Source: Mucilaginibacter tundrae
GTDB lineage: Bacteria > Bacteroidota > Bacteroidia > Sphingobacteriales > Sphingobacteriaceae
Direction of reading: 5' to 3'
Assembly: GCF_013408825.1 (NCBI RefSeq)
Contig: NZ_JACCBZ010000009.1
Location: 119,153-183,152, forward strand
DNA: 64,000 nt
Each line of letters begins with the position of its first letter. Position 1 is the first letter of the stretch. This document shows positions 27,237 through 53,747 of this stretch, in pieces. Made by a program: the position numbers and the translations under genes. The notes below the pieces were generated by a model, which was given only the letters and a program-made list of their open reading frames with translations, ran no database searches and was not told the origin of the DNA.

Positions 27237-27252
27237 TATGCCGTTCGGCATT
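27237..27252. promoter_or_regulatory. ATGCC-N4-GGCAT palindrome (copy 2 of 4)
   Basis: ATGCCGTTCGGCAT at 27,238-27,251, about 10 bp downstream of the -7 box and 16 bp before the terminase small subunit start. Position suits an operator. Confidence 0.5.
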
Positions 27253-27267
27253 TTAATCATAAACTTC

Positions 27268-27804: not shown

Positions 27805-27823
27805 CCCAATGACCCAATGACCT
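27784..27823 (+). repeat. octamer tandem repeat at the terS/terL junction
   Basis: Unit AATGACCC repeated four times (27,784-27,815) plus AATGACCT. Each unit contains ATGA, so it offers overlapping start and stop codons. The terS stop is inside it and the terL ATG is at 27,817. Confidence 0.85.
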
Positions 27824-29031
27824 CAACCATCCTCTTCAAACAAAACTACCATTCCACAGCTCAAACGGTTATTAACCAGGGCGGCACAAGTTCCGGCAAA
27901 ACCTATGCTATTGAACAAGTATTATTCTGTCTCGCCTGCGAAAATCATAAACAGGTGATAACTGTTGTTGGACAAGATATTCCAAATCTTAAAGCAGGTG
28001 CCCTACGCGATGCTTTAAATATTTACAACGATTCTGACCAGTTAAAAACCATGGTCAAAAACTATAATAAGACCGACCGGGTATTTGAGTTTCACAATGG
28101 CACACTACTCGAGTTCAAAAGTTACAGCGATGCACAGGACGCCAAGGCGGGTAAAAGAGATTATTTATTTATAAATGAAGCCAATGGCATTACTTACGAT
28201 ATCTACAACGAATTATCGTTACGCACCCGAAAACGCATCTTTATCGATTATAACCCCAATAGCAATTTCTGGGTGCATGAGCATCTCATCGGTAAAAAAA
28301 ACGTAGAGCTCATTATTTCCGATCATCGTCATAACCCTTTTCTTACACAACCCGAACGCGATAAGATAGAAGTGCTGAAAGATGCCGAGGAAGAGCTTTG
28401 GAAAGTATATGCCCGTGGCCTCACAGGTAAAATAATGGGCTTGGTTTTCGCCAATAATTGGCACATCTGCGAGGATATCCCGACAGGCGCTAAACTCATC
28501 GCGGCAGGTCTCGATTTCGGTTATACCAATGATGAAACTGGCTGCATCGAAGTATATCGTCAAAACGGCGAGCTTTGGGTAGATGAGCTTTTTTATGAAA
28601 CACATTTAACCAATACTGATATCTCTAAAAGAATGCGCGATGCCGGCATCAATAAAAAAACAGAAATAATAGCCGATAGTGCAGAACCAAAATCCATCGA
28701 AGAACTTATCCGCCAGGGTTGGAATGTAAAAGGTGCCAAAAAAGGCCCTGATAGTATCCAACATTCAATCGACATCCTAAAACGCTACAAAATAAACGTT
28801 ACCCGCCGCAGTGTAAACCTGCGCAAAGAACTCGACCGGTACAAATGGAAAGTTGATCGCTCAGGTAAACCAATAAATGAACCTGTCGATACCTGGAACC
28901 ATTTGATTGATCCGTTGCGATATGTGGCGTTAAATAAATTAAATACCCGGGCATCCGGCAAAATAAAAACCCGCCTCCCTTATCAACAACCCGGTTGGAC
29001 TGATCCATTAACAAACTTAATTACTGTATGA
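27817..29031 (+). CDS. phage terminase large subunit
   Basis: DNA-packaging motor, 404 residues. Walker A GGTSSGKT at residues 22-29, Walker B YLFINEA at 116-122 with Glu121 as catalytic base, and a nuclease domain with LDFGYTNDE (Asp near 233) and IIADSAEP (Asp near 287). Typical phage terminase_3/PBSX-like length. Start and stop overlap with neighbours: the upstream gene ends in an octamer repeat 13 bp before, and the downstream gene starts inside its stop codon (ATGA). Confidence 0.93.
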   Translation: MTSTILFKQNYHSTAQTVINQGGTSSGKTYAIEQVLFCLACENHKQVITVVGQDIPNLKAGALRDALNIYNDSDQLKTMVKNYNKTDRVFEFHNGTLLEFKSYSDAQDAKAGKRDYLFINEANGITYDIYNELSLRTRKRIFIDYNPNSNFWVHEHLIGKKNVELIISDHRHNPFLTQPERDKIEVLKDAEEELWKVYARGLTGKIMGLVFANNWHICEDIPTGAKLIAAGLDFGYTNDETGCIEVYRQNGELWVDELFYETHLTNTDISKRMRDAGINKKTEIIADSAEPKSIEELIRQGWNVKGAKKGPDSIQHSIDILKRYKINVTRRSVNLRKELDRYKWKVDRSGKPINEPVDTWNHLIDPLRYVALNKLNTRASGKIKTRLPYQQPGWTDPLTNLITV

Positions 29032-30695: not shown

Positions 30696-30711
30696 GCTTG
30701 AAACATCAACC

Positions 30712-31380: not shown

Positions 31381-33057
31381 GCATTCTAGCGCAAATAAAA
31401 ATAATCAATACCTCTGCCCTTGCCGGTACTGATCCTATCCATCCAGCCATTTATGGTACGGTCATCATCTCACTGACCGATCCCAACCGGTTCACCCACT
31501 AATGGTAATAACGTCGTTATCAATTATAACGAAACAACAAACGGAGTTACCACTGCAAAAACGGCAACCATCGCTGGCCAATCGCAAGTAATTTATGAAG
31601 GTATCATTACCTACCTCTTCGCAGGCATCACTAACTCATGGGTGGTAACTGGTCAAAGCACCTCGCCCGATGCCGCGCCGCCTGTTACTCAATGTGATTT
31701 GCAGATAAATTACATCAGCGTCACCAAACCCGAAAGTTCTCCTGGTGCGGCAGATGGACAGATCAGCGTTAACGCAACTTCAAGTTATTTACCGATTATG
31801 TATAGTTTGGATAATGTAAATTTCCAAACCAGCAATATTTTTGCCGGCTTGCACGGCGGTGCGTATACGGTTTATTGTACCGATGCCAATACTTTAGGCT
31901 GCCTTACATCCTCAACTGTTACCGTACCTATCACACAGAACCTTTTGGTATCCGATCCCTCGGTAACCGTCGGTACCAACACCAGCCGATGGAATGCCGC
32001 CTTCAATCCGATTGTATTTACTTACCAACGTAAAGACTTTGAAGTAACCAGTGTAATTGTTGATACAGCTACCGGCTACGCCAGAGTAAATGTGAACGCC
32101 GATCTGAGCGCCATCCAAGCGGCAATTACCGCAAACCAAAACGCTATAAGTACCGCCGCCTTAAATGGGGTTACCTTATTAAATTATCAAAATATTTATG
32201 TTTATCTAAATGCCGGAACCTATAATGGTGTTTACACCGTACTTTCTGCCGATGGCAGTTCAATAGTAATCAACACAGTCTATAACGGCACAAGTGTCGG
32301 GTTTATAAACATTAATACGTTAAGGCCGTATTACCAGATAGCTACCCATATCACTTATGTCGATCCGCTTACTAACATCATCAGCACTATTACTTCAATA
32401 AACCGCCCAAATAACCAGGGAATTGTTAAGGCCGATATTTCAAACTTTCTGCAAAGTTTGCTGCAAGCTAAGGATAGTAACGATTATACCCAGCTCAATT
32501 ATCGCGATACCAACCTATCAGCCAGTTATACTATCCAATATGCCGAGCAGTATGATGATTACCAAAACCCGGGCACTACTATAACATCACCATACATAGC
32601 TATCTCCGCCCCGTACTATGTAACCTATACCGCCCGTCAGATCCAATCAAAAAATGGTGGTAGCATGGCCGATTACATACCATTTCCTGCGCCATCAACC
32701 CCTGCAAAATGGATAACTGATTTTGCAGAACCCGCCTTCACAAACGGCTACCCATTTGACATGTCATTTATCTATTCGGAAACACTCGCCGGGCAGCAAT
32801 TATACTATAACATTATTCTGCAGGATATCAACCGCAATCCTTTACCCGGCAGCAATGAAACCTCCTACCTGCTGAATGATGATGGTTCATGGCTCTTAAA
32901 CCAGGACGCATCGAAACTCATTATCGCCGCCCAAAACCTGGTAACCACGCCAATCACCGCGCAAACCGGGTTAAACCGCGTTAACATTCATCTTGATCTG
33001 CCGTTAAATGTTTATTATTTCACTATCTCGCTATATTATAATGATGCAAATGGCAAC
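31377..33057 (+). pseudogene. large phage tail protein, frameshifted near 31,497 and cut by inversion at its 3' end
   Basis: The gene starts at ATG 31,377 (MSILAQIKIINTSALAGTDP) but meets TAA at 31,500. From 31,498 the reading continues naturally in the next frame (TNGNNVVINYNETTNG), so one extra C in the CCC run at 31,495-31,497 explains the break. The remaining frame (ATG at 31,642) is beta-rich and runs to NDANGNE near 33,057. After this the sequence is the reverse complement of the capsid gene, so residues up to the apparent stop at 33,159 are foreign. Its missing C-terminus is the minus-strand fragment 42,753-43,202. Confidence 0.75.
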
Positions 33058-33336
33058 GAGTTTGTCCCATTGTTCCTGTTTCATAAATTCGTAAACTACC
33101 GGGTCCAGGTAGCTTTCGTTTTGAAGGGCGGTTGTGCCCTGATCGGCAAATATGCCTGATGGATCCTGGAGCACTACGTCGTCATCAACATCAAGTATTA
33201 CCTTGCGTGATTTTACGTCGTTAATAACTGTTAGCAGGCCTCGTTTAACGGAGTCGGCTTCCAGCAGTGTGCTGGCCATAAACCCGGCCAGCTCTTCGCC
33301 GGCATAGGTGTTGTTTGTAAATGTAAATTGAGCCAT
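33031..33336 (-). CDS. major capsid protein, N-terminal fragment
   Basis: The ORF begins MAQFTFTNNTYAGEELAGFM and continues DVDDDVVLQDPSGIFADQG to EFMKQEQWDKL, then runs out into seven non-homologous residues (VAICIIII) and a stop at 33,031. The natural continuation, IQSWEAQSLQPGDFMDYEG, lies at 43,203 on the opposite strand. The piece stands downstream of the protease-scaffold gene, the canonical place for a capsid gene. As the DNA stands it can only give a truncated product. Confidence 0.8.
   Translation of the reverse strand: MAQFTFTNNTYAGEELAGFMASTLLEADSVKRGLLTVINDVKSRKVILDVDDDVVLQDPSGIFADQGTTALQNESYLDPVVYEFMKQEQWDKLVAICIIII
33045..33068. other. left breakpoint of the 10.15-kb inversion
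   Basis: To the left, plus-strand tail gene (NDANGN). To the right, minus-strand capsid gene (WDKL). The switch falls within a few bases of 33,055. Sequence TTTGTCCCATT here and TTGTATCCCGTT on the minus strand at the right breakpoint share an imperfect 9-10 bp similarity. Confidence 0.75.
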
Positions 33337-33360
33337 TTATTTTGAATTGGTTTATTTTAT

Positions 33361-33431
33361 TTAGTGATTGAGTGAGTTACTGAATGAGTGATGAGATTAA
33401 TCACTCATTCGCTAAATCACTAATTATTTAG
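33361..33431. repeat. inverted octamer-repeat array between capsid fragment and protease gene
   Basis: Units AGTGATTG, AGTGAGTT, ACTGAATG, AGTGATGA in the left arm. The right arm on the other strand reads AGTGATTT, AGCGAATG, AGTGATT. It is the 8-nt variant of the heptamer arrays elsewhere. Confidence 0.6.
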
Positions 33432-34662
33432 ATATTGCTTTTTTTACTGCGTTTTTTGCTAGGGTGCTAGTAGGGGCAAAGAAGGGTGTTTGTTCGGTTT
33501 TAGCTTTGTTGCTACGTTTGGAACCTTCGGGAGTGAAGTTGGAACGGATCTCGTTCTTTACTTCTTCGCGCGTTTTGCTGAGGCGATCATTGGCGGTTTT
33601 AAGGGCGGCCTGGGCTTCGGTCAACAAAGCATTTTGGGCATGCAGTTTTGCTTTGATGGACTGGATCTTGTTTTGAACGTCGCCGGGTTTTGCTTTTTTG
33701 AATTTGTCGGATGGGGCATCATCGTCATCGTCCTGAAATGTGTCAGGATCGGGATCAGCATCCGGGTCGGATAGGGGCGGAGTGACTTGCTGTACCGTAC
33801 CGCCTTTAACCGCAATTTTACTTCCGCTTGCAGTGGTGTAAGTGTCGGCTGGGGCGGGTGTAGTCATGTCGGCGTCCTGGTAAACTTCGGTGCCTTCGTC
33901 CATTTGGCCGGCGTGGTGCAGGGTGCCTTTGTAGGTAATGGTTTGTTTGTTCACTACTTTTTTAAAGTAGTTCATAATCTTATCCAAAACCGATGAGGTT
34001 TTTTCGATAAGTTCTCTGTTCTCCATGTTCATGTTGTTTTTACTGTGTTTATTATTGTTGTTTAAGAGCTTGTTGATGCAACGCTGGTAAACCGCCGGGG
34101 CGGCGCTGGTATAGTTTTTAATAAGGGCGCTGTTGGTGATCTCGGTGCTATAATCTTCGATGGCATCGATAAAGCCAAGGTCGAGTGCCTGATCGGCGGA
34201 TAACCAGGTGACGGAGTTGATTAGACTGTTGATGGTAACTCCGTCCAACCCGGTTTTATCCATGTAGATCTGCGCCAGGCGCTGTTGTACTACATTGAGC
34301 ATTTGCACATCTTTAAGCAGCTCATCAGCATTTCCTCCTGAGCCTACCATTGGTTTATGGATCATGAGGAGCGCGTATTTGCTCATGACCACACTATGGC
34401 CGCCCATTGCGACGATAGAAGCGGCAGAGGCAGCCAGCGCATCGATGTAGGTTATTACGTTGCCGGTGTATTTTTTTAGCAAATCGTAAATGGCTATGGC
34501 ATCAAAAGCGCTGCCACCAACAGAGCTTATGTGCACTTCTACATCCTGGCCGTTTGCTGCCTCTAGTTGCCACTGGATATATGATGATGACAGGCTGCCG
34601 GAACCTATGCAATCAGTATCGGTATCGTATAAGTAGATTTTGTAGGGTATGTTTTGGTTCAT
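33424..34662 (-). CDS. ClpP-like prohead protease fused to scaffold
   Basis: About 412 residues from ATG 34,662 (MNQNIPYKIYLYD); upstream in-frame ATGs fall in a repeat and a palindrome. Residues 1-165 form a ClpP-fold protease: SSVGGSAFDAIAIYDLL oxyanion loop, Ser82 in AASIVAMGG, His102 in LLMIHKPMVG. Residues 230-412 are acidic and then coiled-coil (DPDADPDPDTFQDDDDD, then KIQSIKAKLHAQNALLTEAQ), the scaffold part cleaved during head maturation. It lies immediately upstream of the capsid gene fragment on the same strand, a typical head-gene order. Confidence 0.85.
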   Translation of the reverse strand: MNQNIPYKIYLYDTDTDCIGSGSLSSSYIQWQLEAANGQDVEVHISSVGGSAFDAIAIYDLLKKYTGNVITYIDALAASAASIVAMGGHSVVMSKYALLMIHKPMVGSGGNADELLKDVQMLNVVQQRLAQIYMDKTGLDGVTINSLINSVTWLSADQALDLGFIDAIEDYSTEITNSALIKNYTSAAPAVYQRCINKLLNNNNKHSKNNMNMENRELIEKTSSVLDKIMNYFKKVVNKQTITYKGTLHHAGQMDEGTEVYQDADMTTPAPADTYTTASGSKIAVKGGTVQQVTPPLSDPDADPDPDTFQDDDDDAPSDKFKKAKPGDVQNKIQSIKAKLHAQNALLTEAQAALKTANDRLSKTREEVKNEIRSNFTPEGSKRSNKAKTEQTPFFAPTSTLAKNAVKKAISK

Positions 34663-34743
34663 GGTTAATAGTTGATGGCTCATGGTTGATTGTCCATGGT
34701 GATTTTTTTTGTCAGATTTGACTGCTATCTTTCGATGGCATAA

Positions 34744-34759
34744 TATGCCGATTGGCATA
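34744..34759. promoter_or_regulatory. TATGCC-N4-GGCATA palindrome (copy 3 of 4)
   Basis: TATGCCGATTGGCATA, identical to the copy at 4,941, in the 5' region of the protease-scaffold gene on the minus strand. It directly abuts the first of three 55-bp repeats. Confidence 0.5.
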
Positions 34760-34814
34760 ATTCAAAGGTCGGCATTAGTTTTTGATTTAGTGCTGACACT
34801 GTTTTGTCAGTAGT
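34760..34814. repeat. 55-bp repeat with CTGACA palindrome, copy A
   Basis: Starts ATTCAAAGGTCGG and ends with CTGACA-N6-TGTCAG (34,793-34,810) and TAGT. Confidence 0.75.
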
Positions 34815-34870
34815 ATTGTTTTTTTGATTTCACCGATTTGGTTGTGATTTCACCAATGGTGGTTTGCTTT

Positions 34871-34925
34871 ATTCAAAGATCGGGGTTATATTTCGAATTA
34901 GTGCTGACAGTGTTTTGTCAGTAGT
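34871..34925. repeat. 55-bp repeat with CTGACA palindrome, copy B
   Basis: Starts ATTCAAAGATCGG and ends with the CTGACA...TGTCAG palindrome (34,904-34,921), 111 bp from the palindrome of copy A. Confidence 0.75.
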
Positions 34926-34969
34926 CCCGCTCTAAATCTCCCCCAATATTGGAGACTTGGATTTGATAC

Positions 34970-35024
34970 ATTCAAATATCGGGATAAGGTTTTAATAAAG
35001 TGCTGACACTGTTTTGTCAGCACT
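34970..35024. repeat. 55-bp repeat with perfect 10-bp palindrome, copy C
   Basis: Starts ATTCAAATATCGG. Here the palindrome is extended to AGTGCTGACA (34,999-35,008), 6-nt centre, TGTCAGCACT (35,015-35,024). This looks like the best or ancestral form of the site. Confidence 0.78.
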
Positions 35025-35234
35025 TATCTTTTTGCGTTAGGGGGTGAAGCGGATACCGGCCAATCGACGGGGCTAAGTGCGGGCCGTGGCTAAGGCTTGT
35101 GTAGTATGAGCAAAAAACCCTAGCCGAAGGCAACGCCCATGGTTAGTGATTTGTGATTAGTTGATTAGAGGTTAGTTGAATAATCGAAATCAAATAAAAG
35201 CATCTTTGCCCTCTCAAACGGGGAGCTTTTAGTT

Positions 35235-36326
35235 TTAATTTATCGGCTTCAAAATTCTGCTCCAGCGTACTTTGTTGAATAGTCCTTTGTTTGGATCGGT
35301 GCTGAACCAGGTGATCATGGCTTTGCCGATGATGTGGTCCTCGGGTACATAGCCCCAGAAACGTGAATCCAGGGAATCGTGGCGATTGTCGCCCATCATC
35401 CAGTAGTAGTTCATTTTGAAAGTGTAGCTGTCAGCTTTTTGGCCGTTGAGCGTGTAATCGTTTCCTGATTTGCCTAAGCGGTTGCCTTCGTACTTTTCAA
35501 TAGCAGTGCTATATAGGGCAACTGTTGAATCGGTTAGTTTGATGGTCATGCCTTTTTTAGGCAAGGTTAGCGGGCCAAAGTTGTCGATATTCCATTTGAA
35601 TTTTGGATTGCTTGGGAATACTTCTGCATCGTACTGGCCTGCTGGTGCCACAACCGGGGTTATGCTCTTTATGTTTGAATAACTTTTTAAAGCCGCCAGA
35701 TTATCAACAGGGATGATCATTTCGTAGGTATTGGCCGCCGACTGGTTTACGATCGTGATGTTCAAGTCCTGAAATATCTGTGGGTTCATATCCGCGCCAT
35801 CGGTAACTACGGTATATGATGTTTGTGCTTTTGGGGCATTAGGAACTATTTTACCATTTATATAAACCTGCGCGTTAACAATGGTTAATACATCGCCCGG
35901 GATAGCAATGCAACGTTTGATTAAGGTTGTTTGCTGATCTATCGGGGTGCCTGTTTCTGATGGCTTGTTAAATACTACAATATCACCATTTTTTACTGTT
36001 GTTAAGCCGGGTAAACGGAAATATGGTAATTGTACACCGCTCCAATAAGTTTTGGCGCCGTACATTTCGGGTTCGGTAAAGGGTATAGAAAACAGCGTTA
36101 TTGGCATACGTGCGCCATAGCTAAACTTGCTTACGAAAAGATAGTCGCCTGTTAGTTCGGTGCCTTCCATTGATCCTGAGGGGATTGCATACGCAGAAAA
36201 CAATAAACCACGGATAATAGTAGCAGCTATAAAGGCGAAAATTAAGGCATCAATCCACTCGCGTGTTTTTGATTTTTTAACCGTTGGCGTAGTTTTTTTG
36301 TTTTTTGAGAAGAATTTCCAATTCAT
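35235..36326 (-). CDS. lepB: signal peptidase I
   Basis: A 363-residue membrane protease that removes signal peptides at the periplasmic face. N-terminal membrane segment about residues 27-47. The Ser-Lys dyad is complete: Ser52 in IPSGSMEGTEL and Lys137 in TLIKRCIAIPGD. Box E MMGDNRHDSLDSRFWGYVP follows near residue 318. Length matches the enlarged Bacteroidota LepB. It is a cellular housekeeping type, yet it lies inside the phage late region between the tape-measure block and the head protease, within the inverted segment. This could be a cargo gene or evidence that host DNA was swept into the rearranged block. Confidence 0.93.
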   Translation of the reverse strand: MNWKFFSKNKKTTPTVKKSKTREWIDALIFAFIAATIIRGLLFSAYAIPSGSMEGTELTGDYLFVSKFSYGARMPITLFSIPFTEPEMYGAKTYWSGVQLPYFRLPGLTTVKNGDIVVFNKPSETGTPIDQQTTLIKRCIAIPGDVLTIVNAQVYINGKIVPNAPKAQTSYTVVTDGADMNPQIFQDLNITIVNQSAANTYEMIIPVDNLAALKSYSNIKSITPVVAPAGQYDAEVFPSNPKFKWNIDNFGPLTLPKKGMTIKLTDSTVALYSTAIEKYEGNRLGKSGNDYTLNGQKADSYTFKMNYYWMMGDNRHDSLDSRFWGYVPEDHIIGKAMITWFSTDPNKGLFNKVRWSRILKPIN

Positions 36327-36386
36327 GATAAAACAAGTTTATCACTTTAGATTGAAACAGGCAAATGTTGTTACAAAATAATCCTG

Positions 36387-36620
36387 TTAATTATCTTCAA
36401 AGCTATTTAAAGCACGCCAAATTGTGCGTTCATCTTTCTTGAATTTCACTTCGGCTTCCAGTACTGCCTGGCGTTTGCTGAGGTTACGGGTTTTGATTTG
36501 GGCCTGGATCCAAAGATAGATTTCGCGGTAAATGAAGACTTTTGTGGTAATGAAGCCGGCTTTGTACATAGCTGAGAATGTGCCTTCATCGAAGAGAGAA
36601 TTTGCTGTGGTTATATTCAT
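36387..36620 (-). CDS. small helix-turn-helix-like phage protein, 77 aa
   Basis: The C-terminal half, KRQAVLEAEVKFKKDERTIWRALNSFE, has the spacing of a helix-turn-helix in which DERTIWRAL would be the recognition helix. The N-terminal half resembles MFDEGTF-type phage small proteins. It lies between the tape-measure gene and lepB on the minus strand. Role unknown; transcriptional control of late genes is possible. Confidence 0.55.
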   Translation of the reverse strand: MNITTANSLFDEGTFSAMYKAGFITTKVFIYREIYLWIQAQIKTRNLSKRQAVLEAEVKFKKDERTIWRALNSFEDN

Positions 36621-36645
36621 TTTGTTTATGTCGTATAGATCTGTT

Positions 36646-36813
36646 GGTATCGCTGGCCGCTAAGGCGTCACTTTTCTTTGTCACTAAAGAAAAGTAACCA
36701 AAAGAAAGTGCCGGCTGCGCCTGCTTCTATGAATGTTAGTGCTTGAACTTGGGTTTGTGTTACCCGAACCAGCCGATGCCGGTTTTTGGGGTGTACCTTG
36801 GCTTGTGCTTTTA
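36646..36813 (-). repeat. 170-bp dispersed intergenic repeat, copy 3 (reverse)
   Basis: Reverse orientation. On the minus strand it reads AACCGGCATCGGCTGGTTCGG, GCAGGCGCAGCCGG, the TTACTTTTCTTT hairpin, then TTAGCGGCCAGCGATACC. Orientation follows the inverted block. Confidence 0.75.
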
Positions 36814-36868
36814 GTATCTTATTTACCTTTTGGCAATCTTGCTACTTGATACTAATTACTTACTACTA

Positions 36869-39649
36869 TTAAAGATTTACCCTATTGATGGTTTGGGCGA
36901 GGATATTTTGCTGGTTGTTGATGTCCTTAACATCTACATAAACAGGCGGGAAGTTGTTGACCATTTGATAGGCAATGGAGTTTGCCAGGTTTTTATTATC
37001 GGTTACTGGCTGATTGTAGTAGCGATTGGCATCGCCGCCATCGGTAAATATACCACCTACGGCAAAACCTTTACCTGTGACGCTAGTAGAGAAATCTCTG
37101 CCACCGAAGCCTACGTTTATGGCGCTTACAAGGTTACGCGCCCAGGGATCGCGCATGGCTTCGGATACCACTATCCCTTCGCCTGAACGGAGATAAGCAT
37201 TAGTATTGTCGGTACGGCTGTAACCGGGCAGCATCCCGCCACGGCCATCAGAAGTATAATGCAAACCTCCTTTGGCATAAGCAGGCGGTTTTTGTGAAGC
37301 TATTTTGGCTACTTCGGCTGCGGTTTCGGCTATTACTACGCCTACACTAAGGGCGGCCAGCAAACCACTTTGCGATGATACTTTAGTTACTGCCAACGCG
37401 CCGTTAATTACCGCTTGTGCAATTGATAGTTCTTGCTCCTGCTTAAAAGCTTTTGCCTTTACCTGGTCTTCCTGCTTTTTGTATTTGGCGTTGATGGCCA
37501 GTTTTTGAGCGGAGGTAAGACTTGTATTGTTTAGTTCGGCAGCTTTGTCTTGTTCCAGTGCTGCCACCTTGGCTGTGGCTTGTTGTTTAATACCACTCTC
37601 AACTGAGGTTAGGGCTTGGGCAGCTATTTTAGCAGCCGAATTTTTGGCATCATCTTCAATTTGCTGTAAGGCTGTTTTTTTGATTTTGACTACTTTATCG
37701 GATGTTTTTTGTGTTGACGCTATTTCCTGTGCACCGCTTAATATCGAACTTATTATGCTTAATGCCTCACCTTGTTTTAGTGCTTTTGCTTTTACCGCTT
37801 GTTCCTGTTTATCATATTTGGCATTAACTGCCAACTTTTGCGCGGTGGTAAGGCTTGCGTTATTTAATTCAGCAGTCCTGTCTTTTTCAAGAGCTGCTAC
37901 TTTAGCATCTGCTTGTTGCTTAAGGCTGTTTTGGAGGGTGCTCATGGCATCAGCAGCTATCTTTTCAAATGATTTTTTTGCATCGTCTTCAGATTTTTGT
38001 GAAGAGTCACTATCGATATTTACATTACTGACGGGGTCTGGTTTATCATTATTAGATGAAGTATTGGTATTGTTTGATTGGGGAGTACTAACTTGCTGGT
38101 TGTTATTTTGTTGCTGCGTATTATTGTTTTCCTGCTGTTGGTTATTGTTTTGTTGTTGTGTATTGTTGTTTTGTTCCTGTTGTTGGGCTTGCACTAAAGT
38201 ATCAGAATTTTGTATGCCCGGCTTGTTGCTTTTGTGCGTGGATTTATTTAAGGATTTTTTTTCTTTGTGGGCATCGCTAAGTGCTTTTTTTAACTTTTCG
38301 GCATCCTTGGTTTGGGTCCTAAGTTGGCCAACAATTTTTTTGTGACTGGCATCGGCAGCTTTGTTAGCCTGGTTGTAGCCGGTTGTGTATGCTATACCTA
38401 TCTTGTTTCCTGTTTCTGTAACTCCCTTTTTTACTGTTGTGAATGTTTTTTTGAGCTTATCAGTAGCATTGGTTATTCCTGTGGTTGCCTGTATAGTGCC
38501 ATCGGCTATTTTTTTAAAATCGAGATGAATGATACCGTCGAGTATCGTCCCGAAAGCTTTAAAACGATTGACGATGTTTTGTTCAATAATTTGACCTAAA
38601 TGTTCGATGGACTCTAGCGGATGCGAAAATGCATCCATAATGCCATTTTTTAATGATTGAAAAAAATCCGTAACTTCATTTGCTACCACGCCAATTGCAG
38701 CAAGAGCGCCTTGTAACATTTTAGTACCGGTGGATGAATTGATAAATGCAGTTATTAGATATTGTACAATTTTTAAAAGAAGGCCAAAACCATCAGCTTC
38801 TATGGCTTCGCCAATACCCTTTAAACCACCTTGTACTACCGCAAGTCCGGATTTCATAGCATTGAATCCCTGAGCCACATCTTGCAGGCTCGGCCCAAAT
38901 TCTCCGGATATGCCTTTAATTTGATCAAACGAAGTTTTAAGTAGGTCGATAGTTTGTTTGTGACCATCAAACGCTTTTTTGCTATCGTTTACCTTACTTA
39001 CCTGGCCATGAAAGGCAGTTGCCGTTTGATTAACGTTACCTTTTAATTTCTTAGTACTTGAGGCACTTTTAGCAGTACTTGACGCATGTTTGCTGATTGA
39101 TGACGCGGCTGAATCGATGCTGCCTTTTTGTTGCTTAGTAGCCTGGCCAAGAGAATTAAGCTGTGTGCTTAAATTTTTACTGTTTGACGTACTTTTAGCT
39201 GTACCTGAAGCATGCTTGCTAATTGATATAGCGGCCGAATCAATTCCACTTTTTTGTTGTTTGGTTGCTTGCCCGAGCGAATTAAGCTGAGTAGTTAAAT
39301 CTTTTGTTTTTGAAGAACTATCGCCAACTGCCTTTTGAGTGTTTTGTAATTGTGTGTTTAGTGATCCTAATGCGGTATCGCTGGTTTTAGTTGCCTTGCT
39401 TAAGTCATCAAATGCGGTTGTTTGCGCGTTTAATTGCGTAGTAGCATCTTGCAGGCTTTTTTGGAGTGCATCAAGCTTAGCGATAATGCCATTGTATGTA
39501 GCTGAATTTTGTTGCCCAACTGCATCTAATTGCTTTTGCTGTAATAGCAAGTCGTTAATTGTTTTGTTAAGACTAACAATGTTTTGTTGTACTGTATCCG
39601 TTTGCGCGGTTACTGTAATGGTTATGTTTTTGTTTAAATCGTCTGCCAT
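36869..39649 (-). CDS. phage tail tape-measure protein
   Basis: 926 residues, the longest phage protein here. It begins MADDLNKNITITVTAQTDTVQQNI and is an almost continuous Ala/Ser/Lys/Gln-rich helix with internal repeats: TKDLTTQLNSLGQATKQQK occurs twice near residues 105-175, and two copies of a KVAALE-K-AELNN-LT-AQKLA-NAKY module near 595-740. Two hydrophobic parts (about 285-330 and 770-800) fit the usual membrane-active regions. An Asn/Gln-rich low-complexity part (QQNNNTQQQNNNQQ) lies near 480-530. It sets tail length. Preceded on its strand by a TATGCC palindrome. Confidence 0.85.
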   Translation of the reverse strand: MADDLNKNITITVTAQTDTVQQNIVSLNKTINDLLLQQKQLDAVGQQNSATYNGIIAKLDALQKSLQDATTQLNAQTTAFDDLSKATKTSDTALGSLNTQLQNTQKAVGDSSSKTKDLTTQLNSLGQATKQQKSGIDSAAISISKHASGTAKSTSNSKNLSTQLNSLGQATKQQKGSIDSAASSISKHASSTAKSASSTKKLKGNVNQTATAFHGQVSKVNDSKKAFDGHKQTIDLLKTSFDQIKGISGEFGPSLQDVAQGFNAMKSGLAVVQGGLKGIGEAIEADGFGLLLKIVQYLITAFINSSTGTKMLQGALAAIGVVANEVTDFFQSLKNGIMDAFSHPLESIEHLGQIIEQNIVNRFKAFGTILDGIIHLDFKKIADGTIQATTGITNATDKLKKTFTTVKKGVTETGNKIGIAYTTGYNQANKAADASHKKIVGQLRTQTKDAEKLKKALSDAHKEKKSLNKSTHKSNKPGIQNSDTLVQAQQQEQNNNTQQQNNNQQQENNNTQQQNNNQQVSTPQSNNTNTSSNNDKPDPVSNVNIDSDSSQKSEDDAKKSFEKIAADAMSTLQNSLKQQADAKVAALEKDRTAELNNASLTTAQKLAVNAKYDKQEQAVKAKALKQGEALSIISSILSGAQEIASTQKTSDKVVKIKKTALQQIEDDAKNSAAKIAAQALTSVESGIKQQATAKVAALEQDKAAELNNTSLTSAQKLAINAKYKKQEDQVKAKAFKQEQELSIAQAVINGALAVTKVSSQSGLLAALSVGVVIAETAAEVAKIASQKPPAYAKGGLHYTSDGRGGMLPGYSRTDNTNAYLRSGEGIVVSEAMRDPWARNLVSAINVGFGGRDFSTSVTGKGFAVGGIFTDGGDANRYYNQPVTDNKNLANSIAYQMVNNFPPVYVDVKDINNQQNILAQTINRVNL

Positions 39650-39665
39650 TTGTTGTTGTGTTTAA

Positions 39666-39681
39666 TATGCCAATTGGCATA
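39666..39681. promoter_or_regulatory. perfect TATGCCAATTGGCATA palindrome (copy 4 of 4)
   Basis: A fully self-complementary 16-mer, 17 bp upstream of the tape-measure start on the minus strand. Confidence 0.5.
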
Positions 39682-39730
39682 GTTTATTTGAAAAAATAAG
39701 CCCGTTAAGGGCTTATTAATGGTTACATGA

Positions 39731-40324
39731 TTACATGTCTCCTTTATCTTTGTTTTTTTGGTGCGCAAGCGCTAAATCATTAAGTTCTTTATCAATGTAT
39801 AAAGCCACTACCATCAAGTCACTGTCTTGGGTTGCTATTTTAACTTCAATCAGATTTTTATTGTTATCATCAATCCAGTCAGTATAAAAGTCTGCATAAC
39901 CTCCTTCTAAAGCTATTATTTCCTGCCCATCACCCTCCGCATATGGATATCTGAATTTTTTAGTTGGTTTACCAGGCCCATAAACATCATTAATGTCACG
40001 AACGAGATTGTTGTAATAATCAATTGTCTTAGGATCTTCTTCAGGCTTAAAATCAAAAATAGCTTCGTAGCATTTGTTGTCAACAAATTCAACAGCGAAC
40101 GCCTGGGTTTGCCTGTGTGCATAATTTACTGCACCAAATTCCAAATTAGTGTCAGAATTCTCATCCGATTTAAGAAGATTGTATCCTTTAGCTTTCATTG
40201 CTGCAATGACCTCTGCCTTACTACTGCCAAATTTGATACTTAGGAAGCTTTCGATAGGTTTGGTTGTTTGTGAAAAGCCAAAAAATGGAACTAATAATAA
40301 TACGATAAGTAGTGTTTTTTTCAT
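39731..40324 (-). CDS. secreted hypothetical protein inside the phage tail block, 197 aa
   Basis: A clean type I signal peptide (KKTLLIVLLLVPFFGFSQ) and a soluble alpha/beta mature part (FLSIKFGSSKAEVIAAMKAKGYN, then WIDDNNKNLIEVKIATQDSD). It looks like a host envelope protein rather than a virion part. It lies between the tape-measure gene and a large tail protein gene, transcribed with them, so it may be a cargo gene (moron). Function unknown. Confidence 0.75.
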   Translation of the reverse strand: MKKTLLIVLLLVPFFGFSQTTKPIESFLSIKFGSSKAEVIAAMKAKGYNLLKSDENSDTNLEFGAVNYAHRQTQAFAVEFVDNKCYEAIFDFKPEEDPKTIDYYNNLVRDINDVYGPGKPTKKFRYPYAEGDGQEIIALEGGYADFYTDWIDDNNKNLIEVKIATQDSDLMVVALYIDKELNDLALAHQKNKDKGDM

Positions 40325-40408
40325 TTTTGATAAAGTTTAATGATGTAAAAATAAGTAACGAAAATATATTTTGCAAAAAATATTAGCAAAATTTTATAAC
40401 CATAGTAG

Positions 40409-42523
40409 CTAACCTAGCTTTACCAACTCTACTTTGCAAGGTTGTCCCTTGCGCCAGCTGTCTATCTTATTTATATAAAAATAGGCGTTATGTTGTGCTA
40501 AGTAAATGGGAATCAGCAGGTCGAGTTCGGAAATATCGCGCGGGGTTAACATAAAGTAGCGGACTATTATTTTAGTATTTTGTAATATTTTTTGTAGCTC
40601 GGTATAATATTTATTTTTTAGCCCGGGTTGTTTTTGGGTAGGCGAATTTCCAGGCATATCGCACCAGCAAAGGTTGTAATCACCATCGGGTTTGTAAAAA
40701 TAGGGTACGCTTATTACATCGTTTATCTGGATAGGGGTATTTGTCCCATCAATAAAAGTTACTGATTTGCCCAGGGTAAGCAAATCCAATTTTTGATCAA
40801 CCAATATGCGGGGCGCTACACTTATGGTAAAATCAGCCGGGCCGGTTACCGGGGCTGAGGTATCATCAATCATTGTGATCTGCGCGATGGTACCACCAAT
40901 ATAAGGGCGATTAAATGAAGGCCCAAACTTGCTTACAATAAGATCAGTTGGTACCGCGCTGAGCGTTTGATCATAAATAGTTAGCTGATCCCATCCAAAT
41001 TTTAATGGTAAGAGATTGGCATCAGTTTGATACTCCATGCTGTTTACCTGTGAATACCCACCTAACTGGTAGTTTACCTGTTTTCCCTGGTTTATACATT
41101 TTGAGCTCCAATCCAGGGCTATAGGGATATTGTTTACGATATCCGTAAGCGATGAAAAGGTTATTGTTTTAGTATATACGTCTGTTTGGCAGATAATGCC
41201 GAAACGCTGAAAAGTATCCTTCAGAAAATCCTTCTGCGACATATCGGGCAGGATGCGTTCGCATTGTACTACCTGGCCAAACTGCACATTTGTATTTTGT
41301 GGTACAACTTGAAAAATCGCCCCCTCATAAAGTGTAAAGTAAGCGTCTGTGTACCCTTCAAAATCAAAAGTTACCTGTAGCCCCTCAAATGTTGCAGGGC
41401 TTAAGGTGGTAGATATGGATAATTTGCTATTGGTAAATGTTTTGTTTACACGCAAGGAGTCTCCGCTTCCCGTCCTGGTATCATAACCGCTTGTGAAATT
41501 AAAATTGAACGAGCCAAGGTTAACGTTGGCATTACTATCAAGCAGCAGAATGTTGATATTAAGGTTTGAACCGTAAGTAGCATTTGGATGCCCATGGAAT
41601 AATAGTTTAGGGATGGTTACCGTTGCCTCGACACTGATCACCTCGTTAGGTACATATGCGTTATTTTTGAAAAAGGAAGAAGGATCAGATAAAACGCTAT
41701 CAAACCGGATAACGCCCTGTTGCGGATATTGCGCGGAACCTGTATTTCCGGCAGGATGATTTTGAGTTTGGGCAATAGCATTGCTAACCAGTATACCTTT
41801 TTCATTAGGCTGATTTTGATAATCGAGGCCGTGCTCAAAACTGCCATTGCTGAATTGGGCGATAAGCAGGGGATAAAGCGGATCGGCCAATAACGAGCCT
41901 TTGGCTGTATATCCTGTTGATTGGATCATTAAGTCGATAGCTTTTTTGATGAAGAAACCCGGGCGCTGGTTTCGTACATCGATTGGTTGTGTAAAATCAA
42001 CTGGATCTATCATTCCATAATCGACTATAGGATAAATCCAGCCATCCTGCCCGGTGTTTTTTTGACTGTTAGCTACATTTTCCAGATCCCAGGTATGATC
42101 AAAAGCCTTCCATGGAAGATTAGAGCCGTAATTGCTCCATTGACTGGTGCTATCGCCCATATCTGCTATTTGCCCGCCTAATGCATCAAAGAAGTCGACA
42201 TTACCGGAGAGTATGGTTATGCTGGCGGTGTCATCATCAACCTCATTAATTTCGGCAATGGCATTAGGTAATATCTCTATGCCATTTTGGATAATCCTGG
42301 CTTGCAAGGTTGTATAAGGTGTTTGGCTTTGAATGCTAATGTCATCGGCGAAGCCCAAAATAGTACGATTGTTTTGTGTTAGCGGTAGTTTAAATTGATT
42401 GCTGGTGTTGCCTTGTTGGTTTTTTACTTCGGACAGGTCGTTGATCTGGAAGGTAAGGGCAATGGGGCTGTCGTCGGAAAGATCGACGGGTTTATCGTTG
42501 AGATAGAGTTGGAGGGAGGTCAT
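40409..42523 (-). CDS. phage tail protein, 704 aa
   Basis: Large structural protein starting MTSLQLYLNDKPVDLSDDSPIALTFQINDLSEVKNQQGNTSNQFKLP. This opening and the length match a family of tail-tip or distal tail proteins found in Bacteroidota phages and prophages, which I recognise only by style. It is beta-rich with no membrane segment. It lies just behind the tail gene fragment 42,753-43,208 and ahead of the secreted cargo gene on the minus strand. Confidence 0.7.
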   Translation of the reverse strand: MTSLQLYLNDKPVDLSDDSPIALTFQINDLSEVKNQQGNTSNQFKLPLTQNNRTILGFADDISIQSQTPYTTLQARIIQNGIEILPNAIAEINEVDDDTASITILSGNVDFFDALGGQIADMGDSTSQWSNYGSNLPWKAFDHTWDLENVANSQKNTGQDGWIYPIVDYGMIDPVDFTQPIDVRNQRPGFFIKKAIDLMIQSTGYTAKGSLLADPLYPLLIAQFSNGSFEHGLDYQNQPNEKGILVSNAIAQTQNHPAGNTGSAQYPQQGVIRFDSVLSDPSSFFKNNAYVPNEVISVEATVTIPKLLFHGHPNATYGSNLNINILLLDSNANVNLGSFNFNFTSGYDTRTGSGDSLRVNKTFTNSKLSISTTLSPATFEGLQVTFDFEGYTDAYFTLYEGAIFQVVPQNTNVQFGQVVQCERILPDMSQKDFLKDTFQRFGIICQTDVYTKTITFSSLTDIVNNIPIALDWSSKCINQGKQVNYQLGGYSQVNSMEYQTDANLLPLKFGWDQLTIYDQTLSAVPTDLIVSKFGPSFNRPYIGGTIAQITMIDDTSAPVTGPADFTISVAPRILVDQKLDLLTLGKSVTFIDGTNTPIQINDVISVPYFYKPDGDYNLCWCDMPGNSPTQKQPGLKNKYYTELQKILQNTKIIVRYFMLTPRDISELDLLIPIYLAQHNAYFYINKIDSWRKGQPCKVELVKLG

Positions 42524-42556
42524 TGAAGTTTGTACTTTGGTTGTTTAAATGTCTTT

Positions 42557-42723
42557 GGTATGCTGACGCTAAGTCGTTACTTTTCTTTTTCCGCAAAAGA
42601 AAAGTAACCAAAGAAAACTCTCGGCTGCGCCTGCTTCTGTGAAAGTTTGTGCTTTAACTTGAACTTATGCTACCCGAACCAGACGATTCCGATTTTTGAG
42701 GTGAACTTAGGCTTTTGCTTTTA
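42557..42723 (-). repeat. 170-bp dispersed intergenic repeat, copy 4 (reverse)
   Basis: Reverse orientation, read on the minus strand: AATCGGAATCGTCTGGTTCGG, GCAGGCGCAGCCG, hairpin arms GTTACTTTTCTTTT and AAAAGAAAAGTAAC, then TTAGCGTCAGCATACC. Confidence 0.75.
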
Positions 42724-42752
42724 AGAGATATATTTATTCACCGGTCACTAAA

Positions 42753-43208
42753 TTATTGGGTCTGAATATTGATTGACGGCATGTTGAACGTAATGCTGAA
42801 TGGTGCCTGGCCGTTGATGGTTTCATACTCGCTGAAGGTGGCAGTATTGAGTACTACGGTTTGCCATTGTACAGGATTCGTGTTAGTCAGCATTTGTACT
42901 TTGGGTGAGTATTTGATGGATTGCAGACCTTTGATGTCGGATACGCTGAGGTCTTCGGCCATAAGCTTCATTTTTTGGCCGGCATCTTTACTGATCACCT
43001 CTTCTACACCGTCCTGAACTTCCCAATCCTGAACAAAGTTTTTGATGATGGTGGCATTTTGTACATCGAGCGAGATTTCCTGATTGTAATTGAACCGATA
43101 GTAATTCCAGGATCCGGTTAAACCTATCCAGCGCATATAAACCCCGTTAATATCGGGCGCATGATCCACGCGCACTGACTGTGCCTGGGTTAGCTGAACG
43201 GGATACAA
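42753..43208 (-). CDS. C-terminal fragment of the split phage tail protein, 151 aa
   Basis: The frame can only start at a TTG at 43,208 immediately after an in-frame TGA, with no ribosome site, so it is a fragment. It reads PVQLTQAQSVRVDHAPDINGVYMRWIGLTG, then a beta-rich core to PSINIQTQ. The reading frame joins codon for codon to NDANGN at 33,054 on the other strand. The pattern GVYMRWIGL(x)GS(x)NYY is seen in tail proteins of Bacteroidota prophages. Confidence 0.7.
   Translation of the reverse strand: MYPVQLTQAQSVRVDHAPDINGVYMRWIGLTGSWNYYRFNYNQEISLDVQNATIIKNFVQDWEVQDGVEEVISKDAGQKMKLMAEDLSVSDIKGLQSIKYSPKVQMLTNTNPVQWQTVVLNTATFSEYETINGQAPFSITFNMPSINIQTQ
43198..43206. other. right breakpoint of the 10.15-kb inversion
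   Basis: To the left on the minus strand, tail gene (PVQLTQ); to the right on the plus strand, capsid gene (IQSWEA). The switch is between GGG and ATA near 43,202-43,203. Confidence 0.75.
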
Positions 43209-44132
43209 TCATGGGAAGCTCAAAGCCTGCAACCCGGCGACTTTATGGATTACGAAGGCGTAGTCGACCTATCCGACTTTATGGTTCAGCGCTACTTAAC
43301 CAAAATACAAATAGCTAACGAGCGTTTGTATTGGTTAGGAAAGTCTGCAACTAAAGAGGCTGCATTTACAGCAGGTTTCACAGGTTTATTACCATCTATA
43401 TCAGCAGCATCCGGCGTTTACAAAGTAGGCTTAAGCAAACCAGCGACCTCAATGGAAGCTAGTGCTATTGATGCAACAGGTTTAGTAACTGTAGCTGATA
43501 CCTCTACCCTATCGGACGGTGATGTAGTAACTATTACCAACTTAACAGGCACAAGCAAGGACACCACCAATGGCACGCCGGGAATTAGTCCACAGGGTCA
43601 GTCTTATTTCATCCAGATAGCAAGTGCTACAAGCTTTAAGCTGGTACGTAACTACAACGAGATCAACACACGTAAAGCAGCGACCTTTACTGGTACATCA
43701 ACAGATCCGACAGTAAGCTATATCAATGCAAGTAATGTATTATCAGTTTTGTCAAGCGTTTACTCTCAGCTTGACCCTGCCGACCGTAGTCAGGATGATT
43801 TCAACTTACAAATCCCTTTACATGTAGGCTACGCTTATGCACAAGCGCAGGCAAACAAAGCAGTTAACGTATTAAATGCCTTTACCGATAGCAAACAAAT
43901 GGATTACTTAGGCATGCCGTTACAATTGATGAATCACTGGCAGGCAAACACCATTTTGGGCGCCCGCGCATCAAACCTGTTCTTAGGTGTCGATCTATTA
44001 GGCGATGAATCCGAACTGTCAACAGTCTACATGAAGCCCTATACCAACGATAACGTTGTCCGCATGAAGGCCCGTATGAAAGCCGCCGTAAACTTCAAAT
44101 TCGCTAACGAAATTTTCTACCTGTCAGCTTAA
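43203..44132 (+). CDS. major capsid protein, C-terminal fragment
   Basis: The capsid frame is open from 43,203 (IQSWEAQSLQPGDFMDYEGVV), with the first ATG at 43,245. It continues DFMVQRYLTKIQIANERLYWLGK and ends FKFANEIFYLSA. No ribosome site or natural start exists at its 5' end. Together with the 33,336-33,055 piece it gives a capsid protein of about 400 residues, a normal size. The following genes (tail-tube-like protein, portal) stand in the same orientation, so this is the undisturbed side. Confidence 0.8.
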   Translation: MQSWEAQSLQPGDFMDYEGVVDLSDFMVQRYLTKIQIANERLYWLGKSATKEAAFTAGFTGLLPSISAASGVYKVGLSKPATSMEASAIDATGLVTVADTSTLSDGDVVTITNLTGTSKDTTNGTPGISPQGQSYFIQIASATSFKLVRNYNEINTRKAATFTGTSTDPTVSYINASNVLSVLSSVYSQLDPADRSQDDFNLQIPLHVGYAYAQAQANKAVNVLNAFTDSKQMDYLGMPLQLMNHWQANTILGARASNLFLGVDLLGDESELSTVYMKPYTNDNVVRMKARMKAAVNFKFANEIFYLSA

Positions 44133-44936: not shown

Positions 44937-45218
44937 ATGACGAACATAAAAAAGAAATATACACTAAAACCCGGCAAGCACCAATTCGCCCCCGGTTCAG
45001 CAGCAACACATCATAATGATAATCTAAGCGATGCCGAAGCGGAGTGGTATATAGAAAAGTACCCGTACATTAAAGATCTTTTCGAAATCGCCCCAATAGA
45101 TAACCTTGTTATTAAACCATCAGAAAGTGAATCTGTGGAATCTCAGCAACAATCGGTGCAATCAAATCCTAAATCAGAGCAATCACAATCTAATGAAGAC
45201 CTATCTACCACAAATTGA
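44937..45218 (+). CDS. small phage protein, 93 aa
   Basis: The N-terminal part (NIKKKYTLKPGKHQFAPGS, AEWYIEKYPYIKDLFEI) has coding character and resembles short phage proteins preceding portal genes. The C-terminal third is a Ser/Gln/Glu-rich disordered tail. The 3' end overlaps the portal start at 45,193 by 26 bp in another frame, indicating translational coupling. Confidence 0.6.
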   Translation: MTNIKKKYTLKPGKHQFAPGSAATHHNDNLSDAEAEWYIEKYPYIKDLFEIAPIDNLVIKPSESESVESQQQSVQSNPKSEQSQSNEDLSTTN

Positions 45219-46479
45219 ACGCCGCATATTAGTAAGGCCTAACCAAACCTTCGGCATCCTCAATTACGATATGGATAATGCCTATCCGCAGCGAATGCTG
45301 GAACTGGTAGCAGGTTCGCCCACTGCAAAAGATTGCTGGAACAAACGAACCAAATTCATCGCCGGTAACGGTTTCGAACAACCTGATCTGGGCAAGCAGG
45401 TCATCAACCAAAATGGCTTAACACTTGCCAAACTGTTAAAAGCTGTTGCAACAGATAAAGCCTTATTTACCGGTTTCGGAATCCACGTAAACTATAACGC
45501 TAACTTCAAAATCGCGTCGATAAACTATATCAAATTCGAGGATATCCGCATGGGCGACACCGATTGTCCTGATACCACCGGTAAATTTGCCATCTACTCC
45601 GATTGGGGCCGCAAAACCTGGAAGAACATTATGCGCAACAAGATCACTTTTCTTGATGCTTATGAACCAAATCCTGAAGTCATCAAACAACAGGTAATAG
45701 ATGCCGGAGGATGGGAAAACTACAAAGGCCAGTTGTTGTATTGCAACCCTGAAATAAATGATTACCCGCTAATTGAAGCCGACAGCGTTTGGGAGGATTT
45801 TGAAACCGAAGCCGGGATTAAAATTTTTAATAACCGCGAAGTTTCAACAGGGTTTCTCCCTTCAACAATGCTATTTATGCAAAGCCGCAGGGAAGAAGCA
45901 GATAATAGCCGACCTGATAGTGAGGAACAACATTATTACAATACGCCGTCGCAACTGGAACAGGATCTGGGTGCATTTCAGGGAACAAAAAGTTCGCAAA
46001 AAATTATCGTTATCGAATACGAAGACGAAAACTCAAAACCCGAGTTTCAGCCTTATTCCATTCAAAATAATGACAAGTTATTTGAGAGCACAGAAAAATC
46101 AGTTGAAGCACGTATCATCAAAGGTTTTTCAATCCCGAAGGAGCTCATTAATTCCGAAAAAACATCAGGCCTGAGTAACGGCAGCGAGAAAAAGGAAGCG
46201 ATCAAAGAGTTCAACGATAATACTGAAGCTGACAGGCTTGAGCTTTCAGAAACTTTTGCGGATGTATTCAGTAAGTTTTACACTAATATAAACCCCTCTG
46301 GTAATTGGAATATTATCCCCGTTTCAACCAACGTAGCTGACGATAACGCCGGGATAACTGCAGGCGCAAGCATCAACCAGTTAATCCTATCTGATATTCC
46401 TGCCGAAAATAAAATAGCTGTACTGGTTTACGCCTATGGTTTTAAACAAGCTGAAGCAGAAGCAATGGTGTCCGCCTAA
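45193..46479 (+). CDS. phage portal protein
   Basis: About 428 residues from ATG 45,193 (MKTYLPQIERRILVRPNQTFG); a longer frame to 45,106 overlaps the previous gene. Features fitting the portal family: CWNKRTKFIAGNGFEQ near residue 45, an alpha/beta stem region, and IIKGFSIPKELINSEKTSGLSNGSEKKEAIKEFND near 320, typical of portals. The portal forms the head vertex ring through which DNA enters. The order portal then connector is canonical, though portal genes normally precede the capsid gene. Confidence 0.72.
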   Translation: MKTYLPQIERRILVRPNQTFGILNYDMDNAYPQRMLELVAGSPTAKDCWNKRTKFIAGNGFEQPDLGKQVINQNGLTLAKLLKAVATDKALFTGFGIHVNYNANFKIASINYIKFEDIRMGDTDCPDTTGKFAIYSDWGRKTWKNIMRNKITFLDAYEPNPEVIKQQVIDAGGWENYKGQLLYCNPEINDYPLIEADSVWEDFETEAGIKIFNNREVSTGFLPSTMLFMQSRREEADNSRPDSEEQHYYNTPSQLEQDLGAFQGTKSSQKIIVIEYEDENSKPEFQPYSIQNNDKLFESTEKSVEARIIKGFSIPKELINSEKTSGLSNGSEKKEAIKEFNDNTEADRLELSETFADVFSKFYTNINPSGNWNIIPVSTNVADDNAGITAGASINQLILSDIPAENKIAVLVYAYGFKQAEAEAMVSA

Positions 46480-53585: not shown

Positions 53586-53592
53586 TTAGATG

Positions 53593-53676
53593 TGCCCGGA
53601 ACGAGATTCGAACTCGTACATCCTTACGAATGCCACCCCCTCAAGATGGTGCGTCTACCAATTTCGCCACCCGGGC
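53593..53676 (-). tRNA. tRNA-Leu (anticodon GAG)
   Basis: 84-nt class II tRNA. Acceptor stem GCCCGGG pairs with GCCCGG-type 3' end (CCGGGC plus A). The anticodon stem CCATC/GGTGG encloses loop TTGAGGG with GAG. A long variable arm is present and the T-arm is GTTCGAATC. No CCA is encoded. Confidence 0.9.
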
Positions 53677-53747
53677 TTTACAATACAAAGTCTTTAGTTT
53701 AAGTAACGTACACTTTAAACTAAAGACTTTTAACTTATTAAAGGATG

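Follow-up and report, generated by a model that had tools for sequence, protein, structure and literature searches.

Gene transfer agents (GTAs) of the RcGTA type, defective prophages, invertible phage segments and programmed excision elements are the closest described counterparts of a phage-like gene cluster that lies in a 64,000-nucleotide stretch of the Mucilaginibacter tundrae genome (assembly GCF_013408825.1, contig NZ_JACCBZ010000009.1, positions 119,153 to 183,152; hereafter the window). The cluster measures ~26 kb (window 27,238-53,585) and occupies a conserved chromosomal place in most Mucilaginibacter species. In the window strain it carries an inversion, and in other genomes of the genus internal deletions have disrupted it many times over, at nucleotides that recur.

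Like RcGTA-type agents, the cluster combines phage head, tail, packaging and lysis genes with a conserved place genus-wide and purifying selection, and no replication or integrase gene was found inside it. It differs from them in that it belongs to Bacteroidota rather than Alphaproteobacteria, has its genes arranged as terminase, tail, tape measure, protease, capsid and portal, and is frequently broken at recurrent sites. With defective prophages it shares tRNA-flanked phage genes and several broken copies in the genus, yet its place and sequence are strongly conserved, the terminase large subunit (TerL) is full length in 103 of 125 genomes, and carriers of the commonest truncation, at TerL codon 96 (TerL-96), are scattered tips of the tree. 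The Mu G, P1 C and Min segments also involve multi-kilobase inversion in a phage region, but the window breakpoints have no inverted repeat of 11 bp or more, virion genes are cut, and a single orientation was seen among relatives. The skin and nifD elements likewise have recurrent exact junctions in phage-like DNA; unlike in those elements, the right ends in this cluster vary, genes are broken rather than restored, and two reciprocal-circle patterns were not found.

One report describes lateral transduction in Bacteroides and GTA activity in Oscillospiraceae and Ruminococcaceae (PMC12946183), and another deals with GTA terminases (PMC7947584). In the literature searched, no report was found of a GTA in Mucilaginibacter or Sphingobacteria, nor of the present cluster and its breakage. 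Should gene transfer particles be made from it, the cluster would count as a GTA candidate for Bacteroidota. The repetition of breakage at identical nucleotides across unrelated species can be tested directly. Behind it would stand either an as yet unknown enzyme, a nuclease or a recombinase, that recognises conserved coding sequence, or a programmed shut-off of a costly phage-like element.

The inversion and the cluster it breaks

Compared with every examined relative that has both halves, the window segment from 33,055 to 43,203 (~10.15 kb) is inverted, and the inversion splits a capsid-like gene and a tail gene. The N-terminal part of the capsid, on the minus strand (open reading frame (ORF) 33,031-33,336), is genuine to WDKL at 33,055 and then reads into reversed tail sequence for 7-8 foreign residues and a stop; its C-terminal part (IQSWEA...) follows at ~43,205, on the plus strand. 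Tail sequence is genuine to NDANGN at 33,054 and resumes as PVQLTQ... on the minus strand, to ~43,202. BLASTN against the closest intact relative (genome G324, locus L210) gave plus, minus and plus blocks that switched at window 33,046-33,056 and 43,204. In IMG/VR loci and named genomes with both capsid halves, the halves are contiguous on one strand, and the 5' and 3' parts of the tail gene are contiguous in relatives. Among 76 capsid-bearing genomes (149 searched), capsid residues 1-94 and 94-402 were on opposite strands only in that of the window. The first-pass annotation had proposed that both genes are split at 33,055 and 43,203, and the junction reading, the BLASTN blocks and the contiguous halves in relatives bear this out. 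Its further observation, that the four copies of a dispersed ~170-bp repeat (now two plus, two minus) take one direction if the inversion is undone, also held.

Both junctions are clean to ~2 bp, and no sequence was lost beyond ~2 bp. Two bases (AC) at the left junction could be assigned to either side, so that microhomology of at most 2 bp is possible there, and one base (A or G) at the right junction could not be assigned. The left junction string occurs once in the window. No inverted repeat of at least 11 bp was present within 300 bp of the breakpoints, the longest being 10 bp at a distance of ~90-110 bp. The ~170-bp repeats lie at least ~0.5 kb off the breakpoints and cannot be inversion substrates, and homologous recombination between them was rejected. 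Inverted recombination sites at both ends and the presence of both orientations, which would mark a site-specific inversion system, were not found: the inverted form occurred in 1 of the 76 genomes with capsid, and the junction had no exact match in viral contigs, no reads having been examined. An active inversion of the segment, which had been raised as an option, was thus not supported. In G324 the repeats themselves have matches in two stretches, at the equivalent upstream position.

The broken capsid halves had a ratio of nonsynonymous to synonymous substitution rates (dN/dS) of ~0.02 against the nearest intact relative, and the tail halves 0.02-0.05. Because the broken halves show no decay, the event was judged to be recent, a reading that these sequence comparisons support. 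Barring an assembly error, the cluster in the source strain was recently inactivated by a clean 10.15-kb inversion.

Credible capsid matches were obtained in 76 of the 149 genus genomes, with three more weak ones. TerL was matched in 126, and one match (G180) was too weak, leaving 125 credible; beside the full-length copies, 19 were truncated with a resolved end and 3 stood at a contig end (G301, G349, G350). The C-terminal part of the capsid matched 51 genome loci, 47 titled Mucilaginibacter and four assigned to 'Bacteroidetes bacterium' metagenome-assembled genomes (MAGs); in IMG/VR the best 80 of 128 matching stretches were kept (82-98% identity). In 46 of 57 testable loci, a set in which some genomes were entered twice, the cluster end was followed by a pair of tRNA-Leu genes and by one and the same host gene (g53984); in 11 loci g53984 was missing there. 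Between the window and G324, dN/dS was 0.01-0.17 over 20 cluster genes or gene pieces and 0.017-0.026 for TerL, both capsid halves, portal and signal peptidase. The median for intact capsid ORFs (n = 117) was 0.053 over 1217 pairs. By this genome comparison, the cluster was shown to be phage-derived and kept genus-wide at a conserved chromosomal site by purifying selection.

Structural and packaging genes assigned by PHROG or Pfam comprise those for both terminase subunits (terS, terL), portal, protease, tape measure, tail fibre and endolysin. Pfam named no integrase, repressor or replication gene, as an active temperate prophage would have, among the 27 cluster ORFs or pieces, several of which had no Pfam match; the gene for a tyrosine integrase is found only past the two tRNA-Leu genes, outside the cluster. 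Such content, and apparent vertical inheritance under purifying selection (as seen in TerL, the conserved neighbourhood and dN/dS), agree with a GTA, and by gene content the cluster is predicted to be a domesticated, GTA-like element. The earlier description of a recent inversion in a prophage therefore stood in its first part, given the uninverted relatives, the low dN/dS and the lack of a viral-contig match to the junction. The prophage part did not: a genus-wide, largely syntenic cluster under purifying selection fits a domesticated or GTA-like element better.

Recurrent deletions in relatives

The commonest left deletion end, at TerL codon 96 (motif FEF.NG[TS]/, with the slash at the cut), accounted for 15 of the 19 resolved TerL truncations (G219, G265, G295, G334, G322, G331, G343, G262, G317, G136, G240, G292, G192, G346 and G293). 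Its right partners vary and lie in the tape measure protein (TMP), the capsid, the tail fibre, g53133, or any of three positions of the small ORF sp1. Scans of viral contigs for the exact junction patterns found TerL-96/capsid in 6 and TerL-96/TMP in 3, some of these matches being copies of genomes already listed. Two further left ends recurred: g29028 near codon 193, in five genomes and invariably with one particular position of sp1 as partner, and g30249 near codon 26, in four genomes with at least three partners. Single-site deletions were also present. These results demonstrated that the deletions use preferred, recurrent cut sites. The MAG contigs L164 and L165 end at TerL codon 152-155, which is also the place of the cut in L166, whose partner is sp1.

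An assembly artefact was rejected as the source of the deletions, as TerL-96 truncations occur in the single-contig genomes G192, G292 and G343 and in records from different projects. Relocation of the DNA was likewise rejected: the rest of TerL and g40409 were absent genome-wide in 5 named carriers, whereas that search did find g40409 in its 5 other genomes. An excised circle found no support, with 0 matches in viral contigs for two reciprocal junction patterns. Mixed populations were rejected as well, since the 47 placed ends of 42 whole IMG/VR contigs are scattered along the cluster, as judged by eye and not by a formal test; two of these contigs, L022 and L063, do start at most ~10 codons from the capsid site.

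Breakpoints were called for 34 distinct events out of 41 submitted; L218, a copy of L109, was left uncounted, and six (L166, L163, L170, L173, L187 and L167) gave no call. The breakpoint was unambiguous in 16 of the 34. In all 15 genomes the left end agreed with the TerL-96 site to 1 nt or to within the ambiguity of its call. In the clean TerL-96 cases, left pieces mostly end at the codon boundary (1 nt earlier in L007, 1 nt later in L155); in the IMG/VR locus L043 the left end was called 4 nt earlier. At four distinct right sites the cut unambiguously separates bases 2 and 3 of a Gln codon that is read in frame (CAA or CAG), namely in the tape measure (L007, L034, L111), the capsid (L107, L109, L160, L073, L215, L217), sp1 position A (L158) and the portal (L193, with its left end in g30249). 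Three more (sp1 positions B and C, g53133) are compatible with Gln within 1-2 nt, and the pattern fails at four placed sites: sp1 in L168, in L184 and at position D (L176), and g47142 near codon 51 (L183). The right sites of L156, L092, L185, L186 and L170/L173 were too uncertain to place. With Gln at 6% of residues, the chance is ~0.02 per site, which gives P ~1e-5 for at least 4 of 8 sites and ~4e-10 for at least 7 of 11 when compatible sites are included, for a pattern that was first noticed and counted afterwards.

Replication slippage is excluded in the clean TerL-96/capsid and TerL-96/TMP cases because left and right share no bases; the junction of L073 shares no base with either lost side. 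The g29028/sp1 junction may share up to ~3 bp. At the protein level the cut sites coincide with conserved motifs (NG[ST] in TerL, KQEQW in the capsid, NNQQN in the tape measure), and wobble variation next to the cut is tolerated (GGCTCC, GGAAGT, GGTACA, GGATCA).

A quick-method rpoB tree held 53 of 60 chosen genomes (7 had no rpoB match), selected so as to include carriers, and contained 12 of the 15 TerL-96 carriers. These 12 required 12 origins. TerL-96/capsid and TerL-96/TMP each required 3 changes for 3 carriers, g29028/sp1 required 5 for 5, and g30249-26 required 2 for 3. For 19 of 22 carriers, the closest relative of the TerL flank up to the junction belonged to a non-carrier, with 3 carrier-carrier nearest pairs versus 8.0 expected in shuffles; the flank of L073 is 98% identical to L204, which is uncut there. 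Right flanks match different uncut relatives. Because of the tree origins and the affinities of the flanks to non-carriers, the deletions look separate and recent, rather than one allele that spread.

Proposed cutting and rejoining of the cluster

We consider it somewhat probable that a selected cluster, a recent inversion, and cuts at preferred sites followed by Ku end joining jointly account for these observations. In the window strain, Ku-type end joining would have sealed the ends of two double-strand breaks, in the tail gene and the capsid gene, in the wrong orientation and so have given the inversion, and the same kind of cutting and joining would make the internal deletions elsewhere in the genus. 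Preferred-site cuts joined by Ku would be expected to yield mostly deletions and an occasional inversion. Candidates for the cutter are a nuclease, of the homing or the defence type, with tolerance for wobble changes, and the packaging enzyme of the element itself. Ku was found in 131 of the 149 genus genomes, including the source genome and all 12 TerL-96 carriers of the tree.

Several results weigh against this account. Ku is near-universal, so its presence does not discriminate, and no nuclease is assigned to the cutter. The other 18 of the 34 called events are ambiguous by 1-4 nt, and short microhomology is possible there. Neither window breakpoint is a recurrent site: that in the capsid gene lies ~20 bp away from one, that in the tail gene coincides with none that was seen, and the CA/R signature is absent at both. 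Deletions occur in more than 30 genomes and the inversion in a single one, where it is known from assembled sequence. The window inversion resembles the deletions in style (clean, repeat-less, in the same cluster and ~20 bp from a hot site), not in site. Because its sites differ from the recurrent ones, it may be an independent accident.

A stronger form of preferred-site cutting appears unlikely to us. Here a dedicated site-specific cut-and-join process would dismantle a domesticated phage cluster, from TerL-96 or a few other fixed left sites to right sites often between bases 2 and 3 of Gln codons, arising in lineage after lineage like programmed loss, with the window inversion as a rare wrong-way product. 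Somewhat less doubtful is a tentative alternative in which the deletions are scars of a sequence-specific endonuclease acting on conserved phage-family codons, encoded by a competitor as a homing endonuclease or by the host as a defence nuclease, with end joining afterwards and the inversion formed likewise. Homing endonucleases tolerate wobble changes, and the placing of the cuts on conserved motifs with wobble changes beside them, as well as the presence of Ku, agree with such scars. However, a single nuclease would need to act on left as well as right sites, although no motif common to them was seen, the window sites differ from the recurrent ones, no such gene was identified, and carriers and non-carriers were not compared for nucleases. 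The first-pass annotation had left it undecided whether the inversion is natural or an assembly error that leaves the strain intact. An error is quite unlikely because two coordinated repeat-less joins would be needed well inside a contig of at least 183 kb. The genome is a draft of 24 contigs, its orientation is unique among capsid genomes, the junction has no match in viral contigs and the broken genes show no decay, all of which an error would explain; yet both junctions agree with one clean inversion, and neither an inverted repeat of at least 11 bp within 300 bp nor a dispersed repeat closer than ~0.5 kb offers a substrate.

Ordinary random illegitimate recombination, with loss of the cluster beneficial or neutral and the hot spots representing surviving breaks, is very unlikely. 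It would be in keeping with deletions inside the cluster, with the non-recurrent sites and with carriers at tree tips. It is already strained, however, by the concentration of 15 of 19 resolved TerL truncations at one codon, as selection alone cannot pick one nucleotide, and by the recurrence of whole pairs, with 3 origins each for TerL-96/capsid and TerL-96/TMP and 5 for g29028/sp1. That each deletion allele arose once and spread between species by homologous recombination is highly improbable: flanks in so largely syntenic and conserved a locus could recombine, but the TerL flanks are mostly nearest to non-carriers, carrier-carrier pairs are fewer than in shuffles, and the right flanks point to different uncut relatives. 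RelE cuts CAG between bases 2 and 3. A route through RNA, in which mRNA cut at Gln codons by a ribosome-dependent RelE-type interferase is joined and reverse-transcribed into the chromosome, would fit the four unambiguous and three compatible Gln right sites, yet it is scarcely credible. Four other placed right sites do not fit it, the left ends have no such codon, RVT_1 was not matched in 7 of the 12 TerL-96 carriers that the rpoB tree contains (a reverse transcriptase was found in 5 of 12), and it cannot make an inversion.

Gene content and minor observations

The features of the cluster are collected in Table 1. The two capsid pieces match opposite ends of one family, PHROG 11320 (324 profile positions), and the 5' part has 99% identity to an intact capsid. 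The name capsid is suggested by its context next to a ClpP-type head protease and by a weak match to PHROG 283 'major head protein' (E 6e-4) in one of three homologs scanned. The AlphaFold model of the capsid had a mean predicted local distance difference test (pLDDT) score of 40.5, was unusable and was not used; a PDB profile search gave just two matches (E 0.5-0.8), and the C-terminal part had no match among INPHARED phage records.

Table 1 Features of the phage-derived cluster in the window (positions are those of the window)
Feature	Position	Strand	Evidence or remark
Terminase small subunit	27238..27804	+	PHROG 606, E 5e-13; GP3_package just under cut-off
TerL, intact in window	27817..29031	+	Terminase_3C, E 3e-17; Terminase_3
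TerL codon 96/97 boundary, counterpart of recurrent left deletion end	28104..28105	.	other genomes
Dispersed ~170-bp repeats	30028-30203, 30707-30880, 36620-36812, 42548-42722		
Tail or virion protein gene, 5' part, 471 codons	31642..33054	+	PHROG 26672 virion structural protein, E 6e-10
Left inversion junction, tail/capsid gene	33046..33068	.	junction reading; BLASTN
Inverted segment, ~10.15 kb	33055..43203	.	BLASTN strand switches vs G324; junction reading
Capsid-like gene, 5' part, codons 1-94	33055..33336	-	PHROG 11320 profile 4-59
Capsid Gln-87 (CA/G), counterpart of recurrent right deletion end, ~20 bp from inversion breakpoint	33076..33077	.	
ClpP-type head maturation protease	33424..34758	-	PHROG 94, E 8e-55; CLP_protease, E 1e-26
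Signal peptidase I, host-type	35235..36326	-	Peptidase_S26, E 7e-42
Tape measure protein	36869..39649	-	PHROG 1533 and others, E ~1e-5
Tape-measure Gln codon 913 (CA/G), near C-terminus, counterpart of recurrent right deletion end	36911..36912	.	
Conserved tail-region protein (g40409)	40409..42523	-	PHROG 33698, E 2e-11; same order in most relatives
Tail gene (same gene), 3' part	42753..43202	-	contiguous with 5' part in relatives
Right inversion junction, tail/capsid gene	43195..43210	.	junction reading; BLASTN
Capsid-like gene, 3' part, codons 94-402	43203..44132	+	PHROG 11320 profile 214-304
Portal protein	45106..46479	+	PHROG 11226, E 9e-77
DUF6712 protein	46513..47142	+	E 3e-34
Collagen-like tail fibre	47142..48440	+	PHROG 5073 tail fiber protein, E 4e-13
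Endolysin	52292..52867	+	Glyco_hydro_108, E 4e-11; PHROG 315
Two small ORFs (sp1, g53133), right cluster end, partners of many deletions	52873..53585	+	
Two tRNA-Leu genes, right border	53592..53831	-	ARAGORN; kept beside cluster end

The signal peptidase I gene sits between the protease and the tape measure, and was matched there only in some loci. Small opposite-strand ORFs that look lipoprotein-like by eye lie between terS and terL in L107, L087, L111 and L157, and the window has a similar-looking gene upstream of terS. Beyond the cluster are the tyrosine integrase (55,457-56,785), beside a tRNA-Lys gene, and a TraM-type conjugative transposon gene (59,448-60,563); the region 55,457-60,563 is probably a separate element that adjoins the cluster.

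Other arrangements were seen in a few loci. The tape measure precedes g40409 in L089 and g29028 in L124, and g44246 is joined to g53133 in L092. L117 also carries a rearranged cluster, L089 and L117 being two copies in one MAG, RYN_323. The capsid of G274 was matched as two overlapping pieces near codon 195 and that of G296 has one in-frame stop, defects that possibly represent other kinds of inactivation.

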